Shown: one piece after another, positions 2,341-32,604 of the stretch
Numbering within the stretch: position 1 is the first letter of the stretch
Layout of the letters: each line of letters opens with the position of its first letter
Assembly: GCF_903645315.1 (NCBI RefSeq)
Contig: NZ_CAHJXL010000001.1
Location: 3,462,841 to 3,526,840, forward strand
DNA from: Victivallis sp. Marseille-Q1083
Lineage (GTDB): Bacteria; Verrucomicrobiota; Lentisphaeria; Victivallales; Victivallaceae
Length of the DNA stretch: 64,000 nucleotides
Direction of reading: 5' to 3'
Notes under the pieces: model-generated
Database searches by the model: none
Seen by the model: the letters and a program-made list of their open reading frames with translations, nothing else
Told to the model about the DNA's origin: nothing
Made by a program: the position numbers and the translations under genes

Positions 2341-3429
2341 ATGGGGCAATTGACCGGGGTGGAACGCATTTCCGGGATTCTGAGCGGCAAACCGGTGGAT
2401 CGCATCGGTTTTTGCGAACATTTCTGGAATGATACGCTGCGGCAATGGCGGCGGGACGGCAAACTCGGCCCTTCCGAGGAGTTGCCCGGCCATTTCGGCT
2501 ACGACCTCGAGGAGGCCTGGGTGTTCGACTTGCGGCTGCGCCGTGGCTTTCAGGATGTCGTCATCGCCGAGGACGAGGAGACGGTGACGCTGGAGGACGG
2601 CAATTTCGCCTGGCTTCGCCGTCATAAGAATCACGATACGACGCCGGAACATATCAAATTCGCCGTCGCCTGCCGCGAAGACTGGGAGACGCTGGCCAAG
2701 CCGCGCTTACAGGCGGCGCCGGAGCGCATCAATCTGGCCGCTTACCGTGATTTGAAAGCGGCGGCGGCGGCGGCGAACCGCTTTTTCTGCTGGTCCGGCG
2801 TCAATGTGTTCGAATCGATCCATCCGATCTGCGGCCATGAAAACCTGTTGATGGGAATGGGGCTGGATCCGGAGTGGATCGCCGACATGGCCGATACTTA
2901 TGCCGAGCTCTGGATTCAACTGATGGAAATCCTGCTGGCCGAAGGCGGCAAACCGGACGGCGTCTGGTTCTACGAGGACATGGGATTCAAGGAGCGGCCG
3001 TTCATGTCGCCGGCGATGTACCGGGAACTGATTTTTCCGGCCCACCGGCGGACGATCGATTTTGCCCACGCCAACGGCTTGCCGGTGATCATGCACTCCT
3101 GCGGTTTTGTCGAACCGCTGCTGCCGGGCATGATCGAGGCGGGCATCGATTGCCTGCAGGCGATCGAAGTGAAGGCCGGGATGGATGTCCTGCGCATTCA
3201 TCGCGAATTCGGCGACCGCATCGCGCTGTGCGGCGGCCTGGACACCCGCAACCTGGTGGCCAACGACTGGCCGGCGATCGACCGGGAGCTGGAGGAAAAA
3301 ATTCCGGTGCTGAAAGGCGGAAAGGGTTATATCCTGCACTCCGATCATTCGATTCCGGAGACCTGCAGTTATGATACTTACCGGCATTTCGCCGAAAAAG
3401 GGCTGGCGCTGGGGCGGTATGGGAAGTAA
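2341..3429 (+). CDS. Uroporphyrinogen decarboxylase-like corrinoid methyltransferase (MtaA/CmuA type)
   Basis: 362 aa, the usual length of the UroD/MtaA superfamily. The fold is recognisable from GVERISGILSGKPVDRIGF at the N-terminus, the zinc-ligand H-x-C motif (HSCG, H252/C254) and the C-terminal GKGYILHSDHSIPETCSY segment. These proteins transfer methyl groups between a substrate or coenzyme and a corrinoid protein, with Zn activating the acceptor. The next two genes encode the corrinoid protein and its reactivase, so this is a methyltransferase and not haem-pathway HemE. Substrate unknown; no separate MtaB/MtvB-type first methyltransferase is seen nearby. A strong SD precedes the ATG. Confidence 0.85.
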   Translation: MGQLTGVERISGILSGKPVDRIGFCEHFWNDTLRQWRRDGKLGPSEELPGHFGYDLEEAWVFDLRLRRGFQDVVIAEDEETVTLEDGNFAWLRRHKNHDTTPEHIKFAVACREDWETLAKPRLQAAPERINLAAYRDLKAAAAAANRFFCWSGVNVFESIHPICGHENLLMGMGLDPEWIADMADTYAELWIQLMEILLAEGGKPDGVWFYEDMGFKERPFMSPAMYRELIFPAHRRTIDFAHANGLPVIMHSCGFVEPLLPGMIEAGIDCLQAIEVKAGMDVLRIHREFGDRIALCGGLDTRNLVANDWPAIDRELEEKIPVLKGGKGYILHSDHSIPETCSYDTYRHFAEKGLALGRYGK

Positions 3430-3494
3430 AGTGTAAGAGGAATGTTCCGGAATAAGAATCAAACGGTAAATTGATAGTTGGGAGAATCAAAAAA

Positions 3495-4115
3495 ATGACT
3501 GATTTTGAGGCGTTGAAAAATGCGGTGATGAGCGGTAAGCGCAACGAGGTGACCGCCCTGGTCCAAAGCGCGATTGATGCCGGCGAGGATTTGAACAACG
3601 TGCTGGACCTCGGCATGATTCCGGCGATGCGGGAGATCGGCGACAAATTTTCCCGCAACGAAGCCTATGTGCCGGAGCTGCTGATCGCCGCCCGGGCGAT
3701 GCAGGCCGGGTTGGCGCTGATTGAGCCGTTGTTGGCCAACACCGGCCGCAAACCGCTCGGCAAAGTCGCCATCGGCACGGTCAAAGGCGATTTGCACGAC
3801 ATCGGCAAGAACCTGGTGGCGATCATGCTGAAGGGCGCCGGCTATGAGGTGATCGATCTGGGGGTCAATTGCGATACCGCCAAATACGAGAGCGCGGTGG
3901 CCCAGGGCGCTCAGGTGATCGGCTGCAGTTCGCTGCTGACGACGACGATGCCGTATATGAAAGAGGTGGTCGAGCATTTCAAGGGAAAGAAGGTCAAAGT
4001 GATCATCGGCGGCGCGCCGGTGACCCAGCAGTATGCCGATGAGATCGGCGCCGACGGTTACAGTTCCGATGCCAACGGCGCGGTGAAGCTGGTCGACCGG
4101 CTGCTGGCCTGTTGA
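3495..4115 (+). CDS. Corrinoid (cobalamin-binding) methyl-carrier protein
   Basis: 206 aa from ATG 3495, with GGGAG 8 nt upstream; the in-frame start at 3471 lacks an SD. Residues 1-85 form the helical cap domain. The Rossmann B12-binding domain begins near residue 88 and carries the signature GDLHDIGKN, with D99-x-H101-x-x-G104 supplying the lower-axial His ligand. SSLLTTTM and GGAPVTQQYADEIGADGY are the later nucleotide-loop motifs. Closest in architecture to MtaC/MtbC/MtvC proteins. Together with the flanking genes it forms a three-gene methyl-transfer operon. Confidence 0.93.
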   Translation: MTDFEALKNAVMSGKRNEVTALVQSAIDAGEDLNNVLDLGMIPAMREIGDKFSRNEAYVPELLIAARAMQAGLALIEPLLANTGRKPLGKVAIGTVKGDLHDIGKNLVAIMLKGAGYEVIDLGVNCDTAKYESAVAQGAQVIGCSSLLTTTMPYMKEVVEHFKGKKVKVIIGGAPVTQQYADEIGADGYSSDANGAVKLVDRLLAC

Positions 4116-4140
4116 ACTCCGGTCGGAGTAACGCTCTGAG

Positions 4141-5616
4141 ATGAATCTGACGGTTGCAAGCCCGGCCGGACCGCGGTTGATTGCCGCTGCGGCGGGGGAA
4201 GAGTTGGCGGCGGTTCTGCGGCGGGCGGGACTGGGGTTGGATACCCGTTGCGGCGGGTTGGGAACCTGCGGCCGCTGCCGGGTCCGGCTGGTTGCCGGTT
4301 GTTGCTCGGTCGACGGCCGGGAAGTTGCCGCACCGGCCTGGGTCAACGCCTGTCGCGCCAGGCTGCTCGGCGGCGATGCTGGAATTGTCGTGCCGGCGGA
4401 AAGTTTCCTGCCGGCGACCGGTCAGATTGCATTTGATCTTGCCATTTTGCCGCAAAGAACCGAAACGGTATTGGCGATCGATCTGGGGACGACGACGGTG
4501 GCGGCGGCGCTGATCGCCGATGGACAGTTGTTGGCATCCGGCGGCGCTTTCAATTTGCAGAACCGGTATGGCGACAATATCGCCAGCCGGATTAGCGGTG
4601 CCGCCGCCGCGCTGCCGCAGTTGCGGCAGGCGGCGATCGACACGGTGCGCGGCATTCTCGGATCGTTTCCAAAGGAGGCGCTGGCACGGGTGTCCCGGGT
4701 GGCGCTGGCCGGCAATACGGTGATGAGCTGTTTGTGGCACGGCATTGATCCGGCGCCGATCGGGGTGCTGCCGTTCACGCCGCCGCTGCGGGTTTTTCCG
4801 GAAACGACGGCGGAAATGCTCGGACTGACGGTGCCGCTGCTGACCGTCCCGGCGATCTCCGGATATGTCGGCGGCGATTTGGCCGGCGGCGTCGGCATCG
4901 TCGGGCTCCGGCCGGGGGAATTGCTGGTCGATATCGGTACCAATTGTGAAATTGTCCTGGCCGGCGCGGAACGGATGTGGTGCGCGGCGGCGGCGGCCGG
5001 CCCGGCCTTTGAAGGCGCCGGGGTGCGTTGCGGCAGCCGGGCGGTGCCGGGTGCGATCGAACATCTGTGGTTGGAAGGAGGCAAGCCGGTCTTTTCGACG
5101 GTCGGCGGTTTGCCGCCGGCGGGTATTTGCGGTTCGGCTTTCATTGACTTTCTGGCGGCGGGAAGGGCGGGCGGACTGCTGACGGAATTCGGCCGGCTGA
5201 CGGAATTCGAATCGGACGGCAATTGTCGCTTTTACCGGCTGGCCGGGGAGGTGGTGATTACCGAAGCGGATATCGAACAGTTGTTGAAAGCCAAAGCGGC
5301 GGTGTACGCTGGTATCGGTTCGCTGCTGAAGCATGCCGGCCTGGAGCTTGCGGCGGTGAAACGGATTTATCTGGCCGGCGGATTTGCCCGCTATCTGAAT
5401 CTGGACGCGGCGGTGGCGGTCGGCATGCTGCCGGCTTTGCCGCAGGGAGAATATCGCGTCGTCGGCAATACGGCGTTGACGGCGGCCGCCAGGCTGGCGG
5501 CGGAGCCGGAATGGCTGGAAGAGTTGGAGCGGCTGATCGATTTGCCGCAGGAGGTGCCGCTGAACAGCATTGCCTCCTTTGAATCTGATTATATTGATGC
5601 TCTATTATTGATGTGA
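4141..5616 (+). CDS. [2Fe-2S]/ASKHA reductive activator of corrinoid enzymes (RACE, DUF4445 type)
   Basis: 491 aa. The N-terminal ferredoxin-like domain has C37-x5-C43-x2-C46 and a likely fourth Cys at 71. A large ASKHA ATPase domain follows ([39 protein letters not shown]). RACE proteins use ATP to reduce adventitiously oxidised Co(II) corrinoid to Co(I). This fits its position 25 nt after the corrinoid protein. It is shorter than RACE proteins of ~600 aa because the N-terminal linker is compact. Its TGA (5614-5616) overlaps the first base pairs of the downstream cobalamin riboswitch. Confidence 0.9.
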
Positions 5617-5706
5617 CGTCAGCGGTGAATCCGGTGAAAGGCCGGAGCTGTCGCGCAACCGTGTGAAGCGGCTCAATGCCGTCTCAAGCCGGGACCCGGG
5701 ACGTCA
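5612..5706 (+). promoter_or_regulatory. Cobalamin riboswitch
   Basis: The + strand carries the core of the cobalamin riboswitch: GAATCCGGTGAAAGGCCGGA (5627-5646), then GCTGTCGCGCAACCGTGTGA, and a B12-box-like AGCCGGGACCCGG (5687-5699). The closing P1 helix can form between GACGTC at 5615-5620 and GACGTC at 5700-5705. The layout is compact, with a short variable arm. It lies 62 nt upstream of a pseudopilin ATG and overlaps the stop codon of the RACE gene. The spacer (5706-5767) has a GGTCGACC palindrome flanked by GGCGG/CCGCC that could serve as expression platform. Confidence 0.85.
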
Positions 5707-5767
5707 GTGGAAAGGCGGGCGAAAGAACGGTCGACCGCCGGAAGTGCGCGCAACACAAAGGTTTATC

Positions 5768-6499
5768 ATGAAGCGTTTTTCTTTTACCCTCATTGAATTG
5801 CTGGTGGTGATCGGCATCATCGCTGTCCTGTCCGGCATGCTGCTGCCGGCGCTGTCCCGGGCCAAAGCCCGGGCGCAGGCGATCCGTTGCGTCAGCAATT
5901 TGAAGCAGATCGGTCTGGCGCTGGCGCTTTATGCCGGCGACAGCGACGACTATTTCGTCCTGTGCGCCAACGGCGACAATTCGCAACTCTGGTGCGGCCG
6001 CAGCGACAACGGCGTCTATCGGCCGGAAGGCGGCCTGATGGGATATCTCGGCGAAAGCGACGGCCTCCGGCGCTGTCCGGTTCTGGGCGCTTTGGCCGCC
6101 GGCTACAATACCGGCAGCGGCGGTTACGGCTACAATGTGCAATATCTCGGCCCGATGAATTATTCGATATACCCGTTTGCCTCCGCCCAGGCGAAAGTTT
6201 CCCGGGTGCGCAAGCCGGCCGAGACGGTGGCTTTCGCCGATTCCGCCGATTTCACCGCCTCCGGCGCTCAGGTCGAAACCTATCAGATCAACGGGCCGCA
6301 GGCGCCGTACGTGTCGCCGAACATCCACTTCCGCCATCGAAACAAGACCAACGTCAATTGGGTGGACGGGCATGTCTCGGCGGAAGCGATCGTCTTTTCC
6401 AAACCGCATTATACCGGTTTTTCCGCCACGGAGTGCCTGAACGTCTACCGGATCGGCTGGTGGGGCAGCGATACCAACGAACTGTTCGACCTGGACTGA
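5768..6499 (+). CDS. Pseudopilin-like secreted protein (prepilin N-methylation signal), riboswitch-linked
   Basis: 243 aa from ATG 5768 (AAAGG 6 nt upstream). The N-terminus [20 protein letters not shown] is a type IV prepilin/type II pseudopilin signal with the conserved Glu after cleavage. It is followed by [21 protein letters not shown] and a C-terminal globular domain ending in [13 protein letters not shown] (H-x-DG-type motif). It is one of six such genes in the window and the only one behind a cobalamin riboswitch. Presumed surface or periplasmic protein processed by prepilin peptidase. Function unknown. It ends 28 bp from the convergent esterase gene. Confidence 0.88.
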
Positions 6500-9970: not shown

Positions 9971-11339
9971 CACACCTGTCCTAACAATTTTCAAAATGGC
10001 GTAATTTTCTGATTACGCCCCCTCATTTTCATCTATTTCACACCAATTCTCAAAAGTAGCCCCCCTTTGTTGTAAATCTGCTGTCCTAAAAAGCGAACTC
10101 TGGTTGAAATGATTCCGGCTCCGGTGGTTTGGTAAATGGTTGATCCAGCCATTGGCGCAAGTCGCGGTAAACAAATAGATTCCATTTCAGGAAAGTGACC
10201 AGGGTTGAAAAATGCCATTGCGCTTTCGACAAAAACTTCAGGTACTTGGTCAGCAAAATAGCGATAAGCGCTGTCCAAACTTGAATCCGAACCGCATTTT
10301 CGCTGGTGCCGATAAACGTTTTGATCTTGAAGTTCTGCTTGAGCATCTTGAAAAAGCTTTCGATTTGCCAGCGAGCCTTATAGATGTCGCCGATCGTTTG
10401 TGCGTCCAGCTCAAAATTGTTGGTTAGCAAGGTCAATGTCCGATGGTTTTCCACATCGCAGACGACCACTTTGCGGAGACGTTCCGGATATTTGTCTTGC
10501 GAACCACGCAGAAAAATGACTTCATCGCTCAAAACGGTTCCGGGATATTGCTTGACATCGTATTCCGGGATGTCGTAGGTCGTATTGGTCTTGAGGCGCG
10601 TGACAAAATCCACACCGGAGAGATTCCATTTATACAGCATGGAAAAATCAACGTATCCGCGATCACAAACCACCATGCTGTCACGCGGGAGTTCCATTCG
10701 TCTGGCGCTGTTTACCTCATGAACATCTCCATTGGTGAAATCAACGAACACGGGAAGATGACCATCGTGATCCAACAGCATATTGAGCTTGATTGCCCCT
10801 TTGGTTTGCCGATAGGTTGCCCATGGAAAAACTTTAACGCAAAGCTCAATCAGCGTTGCGTCGAGACTGTAAAGTTTCTTGGGAAACGAAAACTCATGCC
10901 GTGGCGCAATTGCATGGCAGTGTCCCAGAAGCATATGGAAAATATCGCCGAACATTTTCGGAGAGCGATGGGCATTGGCGTACGACAAGTTGGATTTGGT
11001 TGGAGCGGATTCCACTCCAAGATGATTCAATTTGCCTCCACAGGTTTTCAAACCTCCGCAAATCTCTCGCAGACTATTGGCCTGCGCCAACTGGCAGAAG
11101 ATCATCGACACAAAATGTGCCCAACTGTCAAAGGACTGTTTTCGCTTGTCTCCATTGTGTTTCATGACTATTTCTTCAAATTCTCGCTTCGGTATCAAAT
11201 CCAACACTTGACGAAAAAGACTGACTGATGTATTCTTCATTACGGAGCCTCCTTGTGGTTTAGGCAACCGTAATATACTATTACGGACAAGTTGGCTCCA
11301 CTTTTTTCACCCTTTCAAAAGTTTGTTAGGACAGGCGTG
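9971..11339 (-). mobile_element. IS4-type element, copy A
   Basis: A 1369-bp element with imperfect terminal inverted repeats that both begin CAC(A/G)CCTGTCCTAACAA: one at 9971 reading in, the other ending at 11339. The sequence of copy B (12635-14003) is the same length and gives an identical transposase, in opposite orientation. No matching target-site duplication is visible at either copy, which fits later recombination between copies. Confidence 0.9.
10086..11240 (-). CDS. IS4 family transposase (copy A)
   Basis: 384 aa from ATG 11240 (AAGGAGG upstream; the track-length TTG at 11267 precedes the SD). The N-terminal DUF4372-like domain covers about residues 1-75 (KREFEEIVMKHNGDKR, SWAHFVSMIFCQLA). 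The DDE transposase domain follows: SLDATLIEL (D1), VVCDRGYVDF (D2) and the YREK-type signature YKARWQIESFFKMLKQ (E). The protein is identical to copy B and intact, so both copies are probably recent and potentially active. Confidence 0.95.
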   Translation of the reverse strand: MKNTSVSLFRQVLDLIPKREFEEIVMKHNGDKRKQSFDSWAHFVSMIFCQLAQANSLREICGGLKTCGGKLNHLGVESAPTKSNLSYANAHRSPKMFGDIFHMLLGHCHAIAPRHEFSFPKKLYSLDATLIELCVKVFPWATYRQTKGAIKLNMLLDHDGHLPVFVDFTNGDVHEVNSARRMELPRDSMVVCDRGYVDFSMLYKWNLSGVDFVTRLKTNTTYDIPEYDVKQYPGTVLSDEVIFLRGSQDKYPERLRKVVVCDVENHRTLTLLTNNFELDAQTIGDIYKARWQIESFFKMLKQNFKIKTFIGTSENAVRIQVWTALIAILLTKYLKFLSKAQWHFSTLVTFLKWNLFVYRDLRQWLDQPFTKPPEPESFQPEFAF

Positions 11340-12634: not shown

Positions 12635-14003
12635 CACGCCTGTCCTAACAAACTTTTGAAAGGGTGAAAAAAGTGGAGCCAACTTGTCCGTAATAGTATA
12701 TTACGGTTGCCTAAACCACAAGGAGGCTCCGTAATGAAGAATACATCAGTCAGTCTTTTTCGTCAAGTGTTGGATTTGATACCGAAGCGAGAATTTGAAG
12801 AAATAGTCATGAAACACAATGGAGACAAGCGAAAACAGTCCTTTGACAGTTGGGCACATTTTGTGTCGATGATCTTCTGCCAGTTGGCGCAGGCCAATAG
12901 TCTGCGAGAGATTTGCGGAGGTTTGAAAACCTGTGGAGGCAAATTGAATCATCTTGGAGTGGAATCCGCTCCAACCAAATCCAACTTGTCGTACGCCAAT
13001 GCCCATCGCTCTCCGAAAATGTTCGGCGATATTTTCCATATGCTTCTGGGACACTGCCATGCAATTGCGCCACGGCATGAGTTTTCGTTTCCCAAGAAAC
13101 TTTACAGTCTCGACGCAACGCTGATTGAGCTTTGCGTTAAAGTTTTTCCATGGGCAACCTATCGGCAAACCAAAGGGGCAATCAAGCTCAATATGCTGTT
13201 GGATCACGATGGTCATCTTCCCGTGTTCGTTGATTTCACCAATGGAGATGTTCATGAGGTAAACAGCGCCAGACGAATGGAACTCCCGCGTGACAGCATG
13301 GTGGTTTGTGATCGCGGATACGTTGATTTTTCCATGCTGTATAAATGGAATCTCTCCGGTGTGGATTTTGTCACGCGCCTCAAGACCAATACGACCTACG
13401 ACATCCCGGAATACGATGTCAAGCAATATCCCGGAACCGTTTTGAGCGATGAAGTCATTTTTCTGCGTGGTTCGCAAGACAAATATCCGGAACGTCTCCG
13501 CAAAGTGGTCGTCTGCGATGTGGAAAACCATCGGACATTGACCTTGCTAACCAACAATTTTGAGCTGGACGCACAAACGATCGGCGACATCTATAAGGCT
13601 CGCTGGCAAATCGAAAGCTTTTTCAAGATGCTCAAGCAGAACTTCAAGATCAAAACGTTTATCGGCACCAGCGAAAATGCGGTTCGGATTCAAGTTTGGA
13701 CAGCGCTTATCGCTATTTTGCTGACCAAGTACCTGAAGTTTTTGTCGAAAGCGCAATGGCATTTTTCAACCCTGGTCACTTTCCTGAAATGGAATCTATT
13801 TGTTTACCGCGACTTGCGCCAATGGCTGGATCAACCATTTACCAAACCACCGGAGCCGGAATCATTTCAACCAGAGTTCGCTTTTTAGGACAGCAGATTT
13901 ACAACAAAGGGGGGCTACTTTTGAGAATTGGTGTGAAATAGATGAAAATGAGGGGGCGTAATCAGAAAATTACGCCATTTTGAAAATTGTTAGGACAGGT
14001 GTG
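12635..14003 (+). mobile_element. IS4-type element, copy B
   Basis: A 1369-bp element, inverted relative to copy A, with the same terminal repeats (CACGCCTGTCCTAACAA at 12635; complement of CACACCTGTCCTAACAA ending at 14003). Its right end interrupts the IS1380 transposase N-terminal fragment. The 1295-bp spacer between copies (11340-12634) contains the tRNA-Val. Confidence 0.9.
12734..13888 (+). CDS. IS4 family transposase (copy B)
   Basis: 384 aa, identical in sequence to the copy A product, from ATG 12734 preceded by AAGGAGG. The DDE residues lie in SLDATLIEL, VVCDRGYVDF and YKARWQIESFFKMLKQ. The antisense ORFs across it are shadows. Confidence 0.95.
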   Translation: MKNTSVSLFRQVLDLIPKREFEEIVMKHNGDKRKQSFDSWAHFVSMIFCQLAQANSLREICGGLKTCGGKLNHLGVESAPTKSNLSYANAHRSPKMFGDIFHMLLGHCHAIAPRHEFSFPKKLYSLDATLIELCVKVFPWATYRQTKGAIKLNMLLDHDGHLPVFVDFTNGDVHEVNSARRMELPRDSMVVCDRGYVDFSMLYKWNLSGVDFVTRLKTNTTYDIPEYDVKQYPGTVLSDEVIFLRGSQDKYPERLRKVVVCDVENHRTLTLLTNNFELDAQTIGDIYKARWQIESFFKMLKQNFKIKTFIGTSENAVRIQVWTALIAILLTKYLKFLSKAQWHFSTLVTFLKWNLFVYRDLRQWLDQPFTKPPEPESFQPEFAF

Positions 14004-31716: not shown

Positions 31717-32604
31717 ATGAAGAGTCACGAGAAATTCACACTGATTGAGCTGCTGGTTGTGATTGCCATCATCGCCATCCTGGCCAGCATGCTGCTGCCG
31801 GCACTCGGCCGGGCCAAGGGGTCGGCGCAGTCGATCAAATGCCTGAACAACATGAAACAGCAGGGAACGATGGTGGTGATGTACACGACCGATTCCGGTT
31901 ACTATCCGACTTCGTACTTCTACAAAAACGGTGCGTCCAGCGGCAACGGTTACGTCCATTGGAGCGGCCTGGTTTCCGGCCGCTGGGACGGCGATCAGAA
32001 TACCGGCTGGTTCGACGACGAATCGTTCAGTTGTCCGTCGATGAGCGTTTCCGGCGGCGCGGGCGAGGGAGGCGGCTGGTATCCGAGTAAAAAAGAGCAG
32101 GATTGCCAGGCCAGGAAAACCGCTTATTGCGGCAATGCCATTTTCATGCCGCGGCGCAAATTTGCCGACAATGCGGCCAATGGCAATATGCAACTGGTCA
32201 GGGATACCGTGGTCGAAGCGCCCTCTTCGGAGATCCTGATCGCGGAGTACACCGACGACGCCCAGCGGATTCAGGGCACTTCCGCTTCCGGCGGCGATGC
32301 GATCAAATCGCACCGGCCGACCAATGCGATCCTGGACGGTTCCGGCGCCTGGGCCGGCGGTGAAGTCGGCGATTGCGGTTCGCCGCGCAAGATCTCTTAT
32401 GCGACCGCCAAGGCGAAGATCGATGCGCGCGACAGCAATTTCCACATCGCCTATGTCGCGGTCGACCGGCACAACGGCAAAGCAAATTACACTTTTGCCG
32501 ACGGCCACGCTGCGGCGCACTCCTTGCAGGAGACGCTGGACCCGAACAATTTCCTCTGGGGGCGGCGGCTCTATTCGCAGTCCGGCATGCCGACGATCGA
32601 CTGA
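31717..32604 (+). CDS. Pseudopilin-like secreted protein
   Basis: 295 aa, the longest of the six. The N-terminus reads [19 protein letters not shown] after a 5-residue leader, followed by [20 protein letters not shown]. The large C-terminal domain includes [14 protein letters not shown] and ends [30 protein letters not shown]. Presumed prepilin-peptidase substrate exported to the envelope or surface; function unknown. Confidence 0.88.

Follow-up and report, generated by a model that had tools for sequence, protein, structure and literature searches.

The regulons known for vitamin B12 uptake in Gram-negative bacteria include those of the BtuB-BtuFCD type, and B12 is too large for ordinary porins. 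Control through a kissing contact between the loops L5 and L13 is known from cobalamin riboswitches. Further points of comparison come from the Planctomycetes, whose phylum is akin to that of the lineage studied here, and from the DUF1559 family, which we take to resemble the pseudopilins described below. The BtuFCD and BtuBFCD systems are mentioned in the accessible part of one report (PMC2667541). Planctomycete pili-like fibres at crateriform structures bind dextran, and the authors speculate that such fibres aid uptake across the outer membrane (PMC5394234); they differ from the system considered here in their polysaccharide substrate, and the accessible part of that paper gives neither a fibre gene nor a riboswitch. 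The planctomycete DUF1559 proteins form a large paralogous family, with 68 copies in P. limnophila, for which the accessible sections of the corresponding publication state no link to B12 (PMC10632474). Among the open-licence papers listed in our searches we found no description of a pseudopilin under a B12 riboswitch, or of a pilin in B12 uptake; the parts are known singly, and an account of the combination of riboswitch and pseudopilin was not found there.

The locus described here lies in a window of 64 kb, by which we mean the whole stretch of DNA that was analyzed. Its riboswitch shares with those of RF00174 and RF01689 the core, the B12 box, covarying helices and a predicted L5-L13 contact near the ribosome binding site, but its target is a pseudopilin, and the copy in the window stays short of the Rfam gathering threshold. 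With the BtuB-BtuFCD regulons the system has in common a B12 riboswitch, genes of the BtuF, BtuC and BtuD types and B12 synthesis genes within the regulon, whereas the first gene here is a pseudopilin, and the lineage has almost no PF00593 receptors. On the basis of sequence comparison we consider it rather likely that the locus holds a translational cobalamin riboswitch together with a pseudopilin for B12 uptake, which perhaps replaces BtuB. The features of the locus are as follows.

2341..3429, + strand: URO-D-type methyltransferase, neighbour only (PF01208, E 1.6e-17)
3471..4115, + strand: corrinoid protein, MtgC/MtbC-like, neighbour only (PF02310, E 4.9e-25; PF02607, E 2.7e-20; NCBIfam below cut-off)
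4141..5616, + strand: RACo-type corrinoid reactivase, neighbour only (PF14574, E 1.1e-62; PF17651, E 5.7e-28)
5590..5608, + strand: possible own promoter, inferred, inside the RACo 3' end (-10-like TATATT at 5590-5595 and TATTAT at 5603-5608)
5602..5712, + strand: cobalamin riboswitch aptamer (model R1, 59.3 bits, E 7.9e-23; RF00174, 26.3 bits at 5581-5719)
5614..5620, + strand: P1 5' arm UGACGUC, read from the sequence, partner 5700-5706
5630-5634/5642-5646, + strand: P4, read from the sequence
5652..5656, + strand: L5 loop CGCGC, conserved core
about 5686-5696, + strand: B12 box, read from the sequence
5700..5706, + strand: P1 3' arm GACGUCA, read from the sequence
5744..5756, + strand: predicted L13 hairpin GUG-CGCGCAA-CAC, with GCGCG at 5746-5750 complementary to L5
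5757..5761, + strand: Shine-Dalgarno-like AAAGG, read from the sequence
5768..6499, + strand: pseudopilin of 243 aa, B12-riboswitch-linked subfamily (PF07963, N_methyl, E 2.6e-5; in the linked tree group)

At the curated Rfam scores, the whole window yields only a tRNA, and no cobalamin family reaches its gathering score. Once the filters are permissive, RF00174 gives the best match, at 5581-5719 on the forward strand (26.3 bits against a gathering score of 31.5; E 6.2e-5 for 401 bases), and two weaker matches of the same clan that overlap it were dropped by the tool. The covariance model R1 was built from 24 pilin-preceding riboswitches of other genomes, both copies of the window's genome being excluded, and its match to the held-out window at 5602-5712 reaches 59.3 bits and an E-value of 7.9e-23, while the one other match in the window is at E 4.5. 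This confirms the cobalamin riboswitch that had been placed upstream of the pseudopilin; a significant cobalamin-model match is missing solely at the Rfam gathering score. Three high-scoring relatives, all from the R1 training set, were scanned against Rfam. With 40.7 and 38.5, two exceed the RF01689 (AdoCbl-II) gathering score of 36.5, and one, with 32.1, exceeds the RF00174 score of 31.5. As all three pass one or the other family, the window element was kept as a cobalamin riboswitch despite its sub-gathering score.

Covariation was assessed with five measures and 500 shuffles, and two of the five are weak. In the R1 helices 95.5% of the cells are paired, as compared to 78.4% in the shuffles and at most 47% with the partners slid, and the covariation score is 0.435 versus 0.129 in shuffled alignments. 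The two weak measures are the two-sided changes, found in 9 of the 15 pairs versus 6.6 when shuffled (10 of 500 shuffles as high), and the number of pair types, 19 versus 17.7 (162 of 500 shuffles as high). The evidence for the riboswitch is homology together with covariation. As the best explanation of the whole, which we hold to be fairly probable, 5602-5761 would be a working cobalamin riboswitch, kin to RF00174 and RF01689. Thermodynamic stability was rejected as evidence, as folding does not single out the region (z -0.70).

The 5' arm of P1, at 5614-5620, overlaps the RACo stop codon TGA at 5614-5616, as the preliminary description had said. At the other end of the element, the predicted L13 hairpin is followed without a gap by AAAGG, and after six further bases by the pilin ATG at 5768. 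Among 52 scored pilin riboswitches, which include both from the window's genome, the L13 5-mer picked between core and pilin is GCGCG or GCGCA in 38. In these automatic picks an L5 loop CGCGC is mostly partnered by GCGCG or GCGCA, and UGCGC by GCGCA in two of three cases. For CCCGC the pick is GCGAA or GCGAG in five of six, and because this pairing is incomplete, the L5-L13 covariation across relatives is suggestive, not complete. Upstream of the aptamer, 17 of the 33 scoreable pilin riboswitches have TATATTA at a distance of 35-115 nt from the L5 core, as compared to 1.1% of random 80-nt stretches from the same loci, and looser -10-like forms occur in 23 of the 33 versus 5.2% of such stretches; the window is among the 33, with the looser forms and without TATATTA itself. 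Owing to this enrichment, the riboswitch may have its own promoter, which at the window would lie within the end of RACo.

We propose that, when a corrinoid is bound, loop L5 would kiss loop L13 beside the Shine-Dalgarno sequence, a mode of control that is deduced here from the anatomy and from other cobalamin riboswitches, and that the pseudopilin would be translated only at corrinoid scarcity. The off state is assigned to the bound form because L13 appears to sit against the Shine-Dalgarno sequence.

The pairing of riboswitch and pilin was followed through 78 genomes of the family. RF00174 gives 66 matches in these genomes, and a pilin lies downstream of 34 of them by a mechanical motif test with a limit of 1,200 bp, or of 40 on a looser look. 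R1 matches are found in 73 of the 78 genomes, in 35 of the 36 good ones and in 19 of 19 genera. Among the 111 family matches listed for R1, nine weaker than E 1e-9 were dropped, none of which was seen before a pilin. Of the remaining 102 matches, 67 are followed within 700 bp by a pilin in the same orientation, where a small gene may intervene in a few cases; six matches near a contig edge or without readable downstream sequence and one before a broken pilin were counted as misses. The R1 training sequences had been chosen for preceding pilins, and as 17 of the 24 come from the family, the count after their removal is also given: 50 of 85. Adjacency of riboswitch and pilin is thus conserved in the family. 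The earlier assignment of the pseudopilin as the target is supported by this pairing and by the L13 hairpin that abuts its Shine-Dalgarno sequence, and we are highly confident that the riboswitch controls the pilin.

The other 35 of the 102 matches comprise the six at a contig edge or without readable sequence and 29 whose targets were read. Some of the 29 belong to B12 transport, namely BtuF (six), another BtuF-like binding protein (four) and BtuC (two), and some to synthesis, namely a CbiK-like protein (four) and a CobD-CobQ fusion (four). The rest are MarC-like proteins (two), a ribonucleotide reductase (one), beta-helix surface proteins (four), the broken pilin (one) and one other. Note that Pfam backs these names in a single example each of BtuF, BtuC, BtuD and the CobD-CobQ fusion, and that the others come from clustering or sequence reading. 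Outside the family, 42 riboswitch matches were picked by hand, 33 of them within the order. Of these 33, 14 precede a pilin in other families of the order, and 11 belong to the genus g47, where they precede beta-helix proteins. Among the picked matches from elsewhere in the class one precedes a pilin (G078), and in G090 and G091 the pilin lies about 930 bp downstream.

Several other products recur in these loci. Very large surface proteins of the beta-helix/RTX type, recognized by eye, stand behind the same kind of riboswitch in G057, G061, G043, G030 and the genus g47 (loci L245, L246, L251 and L123; L207-L212, L214-L216, L218 and L219), and one such protein follows the riboswitch-pilin pair in G009. 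Since some of the riboswitches precede beta-helix surface proteins, the regulon may represent a broader remodelling of the surface. Behind the cobalamin riboswitches of L129, L134, L150 and L233, from other families of the order, the next protein opens with a GYGPxFxxxDIxHxxY-like stretch. In G172 (L203) the riboswitch-pilin pair is followed by what by eye appears to be an anaerobic ribonucleotide reductase activase and the reductase, a B12-independent isozyme that is perhaps under the same switch. A small lipoprotein-like protein of 81-111 aa with two CxxC-like pairs follows the riboswitch-pilin pair in five genomes (L066, L084, L107, L049 and L050); one was checked and has no Pfam match.

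The window pseudopilin carries the prepilin N-terminal motif and hydrophobic helix (PF07963, E 2.6e-5), and its N-terminus matches solved pilins. An AlphaFold2 model, made from a two-row alignment, has a mean pLDDT of 32.9. The subfamily is presumably of the H-X9-DG type. A quick tree was made of 116 pilins. Of the 72 that are linked to a riboswitch or to BtuF, 71 fall into one group of 81 (SH-aLRT 94), and 34 of the 44 control pilins lie outside this group and 10 inside. The controls came from the loci at hand and from high-ranking matches of the genome pilin search, and five pilins first taken as controls were relabelled as linked, as they follow RF00174 matches that R1 had missed. Twelve control pilins from the window's genome group among themselves. 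On this tree the label linked or control needs 9 changes versus 35 in shuffles, and certain residues are commoner in linked than in control pilins (F188, 99% versus 27%; G119, 92% versus 36%). Conserved parts of the linked subfamily also include HFRH and the C-terminal region. The nearest tree row to the window pilin is that of G015, which also has a riboswitch. In G023 and G025 one operon carries two pilins in succession, and these belong to the two subgroups in which the two riboswitch-pilins of the window's genome are placed, as if a pilin pair had been split between two loci there; because the window subgroup is modestly supported, this is what we infer and not more.

The genes behind the pilin bear on its function. 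In many relatives the pilin, of which there are sometimes two, is followed by a Peripla_BP_2 protein, a FecCD permease and an ABC ATPase (e.g. G019 and G014), and in G143 and G159, from other families of the order, lookalikes of binding protein, permease and ATPase were seen by eye after the pilin. BtuF genes were assessed for 69 of the 71 best matches, weaker matches having been dropped. A gene was counted as directly behind a pilin when the pilin ORF ends between 450 bp before and 40 bp after the start of the match, which is the case for 31 of the 69, including those of G029, G058, G059 and G060 with only 7-10 pilin candidates. The other 38 lack such a pilin; a few of these lie at contig edges. 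For the BtuF of G019, the best PDB match is a vitamin B12-binding protein, with haem-binding proteins close behind; in two BtuF proteins that were tested the haem model IsdE scores above BtuF, all scores being below the cut-off. The best NCBIfam model for the G019 permease is BtuC, also below its cut-off. At the window locus co-linear BtuF, BtuC and BtuD genes are absent, and btu genes do not adjoin either of the two riboswitch-pilins of the window's genome. Both riboswitches found in this genome, which is 99.72% complete, precede pilins, and its BtuF (C2:454923) and FecCD permeases (C2:784355 and C1:2273702) are located elsewhere, with no riboswitch detected. The preliminary description had suggested for the pilin either a part in corrinoid scavenging or the exposure of a surface component tied to the methyltransferase pathway. 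The acquisition role is favoured, because the same riboswitch-pilin pair heads operons of the BtuF/BtuC/BtuD type in relatives; a surface component linked to the methyltransferase is unsupported. It had also been considered that homologous riboswitches might precede an unrelated transporter, with the pilin inserted by chance; what the relatives show instead is the pilin in company with a B12-type transporter. Taken together, we think that the pilin probably serves B12 uptake.

How B12 passes the outer membrane in this lineage is a question of its own. The TonB receptor barrel PF00593 is matched in 2 of the 78 family genomes, in none of the 36 good ones and not in the window's genome; of the 59 other genomes in the order, one has a match. 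Outside the order, 47 of the 60 class genomes have a match at E 0.001, and at least 45 of these also exceed the curated cut-off, as do 48 of 50 overall. For this last set 64 riboswitches were listed, and at least 34 of them have a TonB receptor match no more than 1,600 bp downstream; such pairs occur in at least 34 of 50 genomes, both counts being lower bounds that stem from the listed matches and a selection of them. Three of the matching proteins behind riboswitches were read and look like receptors. By these counts the riboswitch often holds a receptor gene in the sister lineages and a pilin here. Exceptions are G058 and G064, where a PF00593 match and a riboswitch-pilin pair are both present. 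The genomes of two deep-sea Lentisphaerae strains are stated to be without ExbB in the accessible part of their description (PMC11361711); the absence of ExbB and the planctomycete fibres are analogies, not proof.

We propose only tentatively, at somewhat less than even chances, that the pilin takes over the part of BtuB in the outer membrane. The pseudopilin would be a B12-uptake component of a dedicated subfamily, which heads btuFCD operons in many relatives. Its most likely place of action would be the outer membrane or the cell surface, in association with a secretin-based pseudopilus, where it might capture the corrinoid or hand it to BtuF; the secretin and T2SSE matches of the window's genome are candidate components for such a pseudopilus. 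The full proposal, that a lineage nearly without TonB receptors imports B12 across the outer membrane by a dedicated riboswitch-switched pseudopilus, is bolder and its odds are correspondingly poorer. It addresses two questions, namely how B12 enters without TonB receptors and what purpose the many pseudopilin paralogues have. As the riboswitch names the ligand, one pseudopilin subfamily obtains a testable substrate. If the proposal is true, pilus-like machinery serves vitamin import, a pilus-based importer of small molecules takes the place of BtuB, and the expanded related pseudopilins could be a family of substrate-specific uptake pilins, readable from their operons.

As alternative to B12 uptake, the pseudopilin could mediate adhesion upon B12 starvation: a cell short of corrinoid would cling to particles or to neighbours that produce B12, and btuFCD would simply be under the same control. 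Adhesion is a frequent role of pilins, and the same riboswitch precedes the beta-helix/RTX-type proteins mentioned above, one of which follows the pilin in G009. However, the operonic coupling of pilin and BtuF (31 of 69), which extends to pilin-poor genomes, and the TonB receptor held by the riboswitch of sister lineages argue against this, and we regard adhesion as unlikely. Similarly improbable is a type II secretion device with the pseudopilin as one of its parts, which would export a corrinoid-binding or corrinoid-releasing protein and thereby scavenge indirectly. The pseudopilin homology, the secretin and T2SSE matches and the surface proteins in the same regulon would agree with such a device, but a regularly linked secreted partner was not seen in the loci that were read, where the recurring partners are BtuF, BtuC and BtuD. 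A direct part in B12 uptake is our preferred reading.

The operon upstream of the riboswitch (2341-5616) is ordinary in its gene content. Its conservation was examined with tblastn in 200 loci. RACo was matched there in the window's own genome only; the URO-D protein has a weak match in one further locus (L095), and the corrinoid protein is matched in four others. Only in G058 (L056, 9723-10322) does such a corrinoid-protein gene lie directly 5' of a riboswitch-pilin-BtuF operon. As operon adjacency is not kept among the 200 loci, the tie between the pilin and the methyltransferase pathway that had been suggested earlier finds no support. Another view is that the window riboswitch controls the methyltransferase operon or is a leftover, with the pilin as bystander. 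The aptamer indeed overlaps the RACo stop codon, and G058 repeats the neighbourhood in part, but the riboswitch lies 3' of the operon, the L13 hairpin abuts the Shine-Dalgarno sequence of the pilin, and it is the riboswitch-pilin pairing, not the methyltransferase adjacency, that is kept throughout the family; we consider this view very improbable. Regulation of the methyltransferase operon by the riboswitch was rejected, being on the wrong side of it and in an adjacency that is not conserved. The operon beside the riboswitch may still signal a high corrinoid demand in this cell.

Mere chance, by which abundant pilins often land downstream of riboswitches, was rejected and has a negligible probability: although pilin candidates reach 282 per genome, they make up about 3.1% of the genes in the 78 genomes (assuming 0.9 genes per kb) and at most about 6% in any of them, versus 34 of 66 and 50 of 85 behind the riboswitches, a background as high as 10% would still give 50 of 85 a binomial P below 1e-27, and the linked pilins cluster in the tree.

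The window contains five more pilin-like ORFs, at 31735, 40299, 59378, 61567 and 63174, at which R1 detected no riboswitch. A transposase-like ORF of 393 aa occurs twice in the window in opposite orientations, at 10086-11267 on the - strand and at 12707-13888 on the + strand, and the same ORF adjoins, and apparently truncates, a paralogue of the window pilin elsewhere in the genome (L089).
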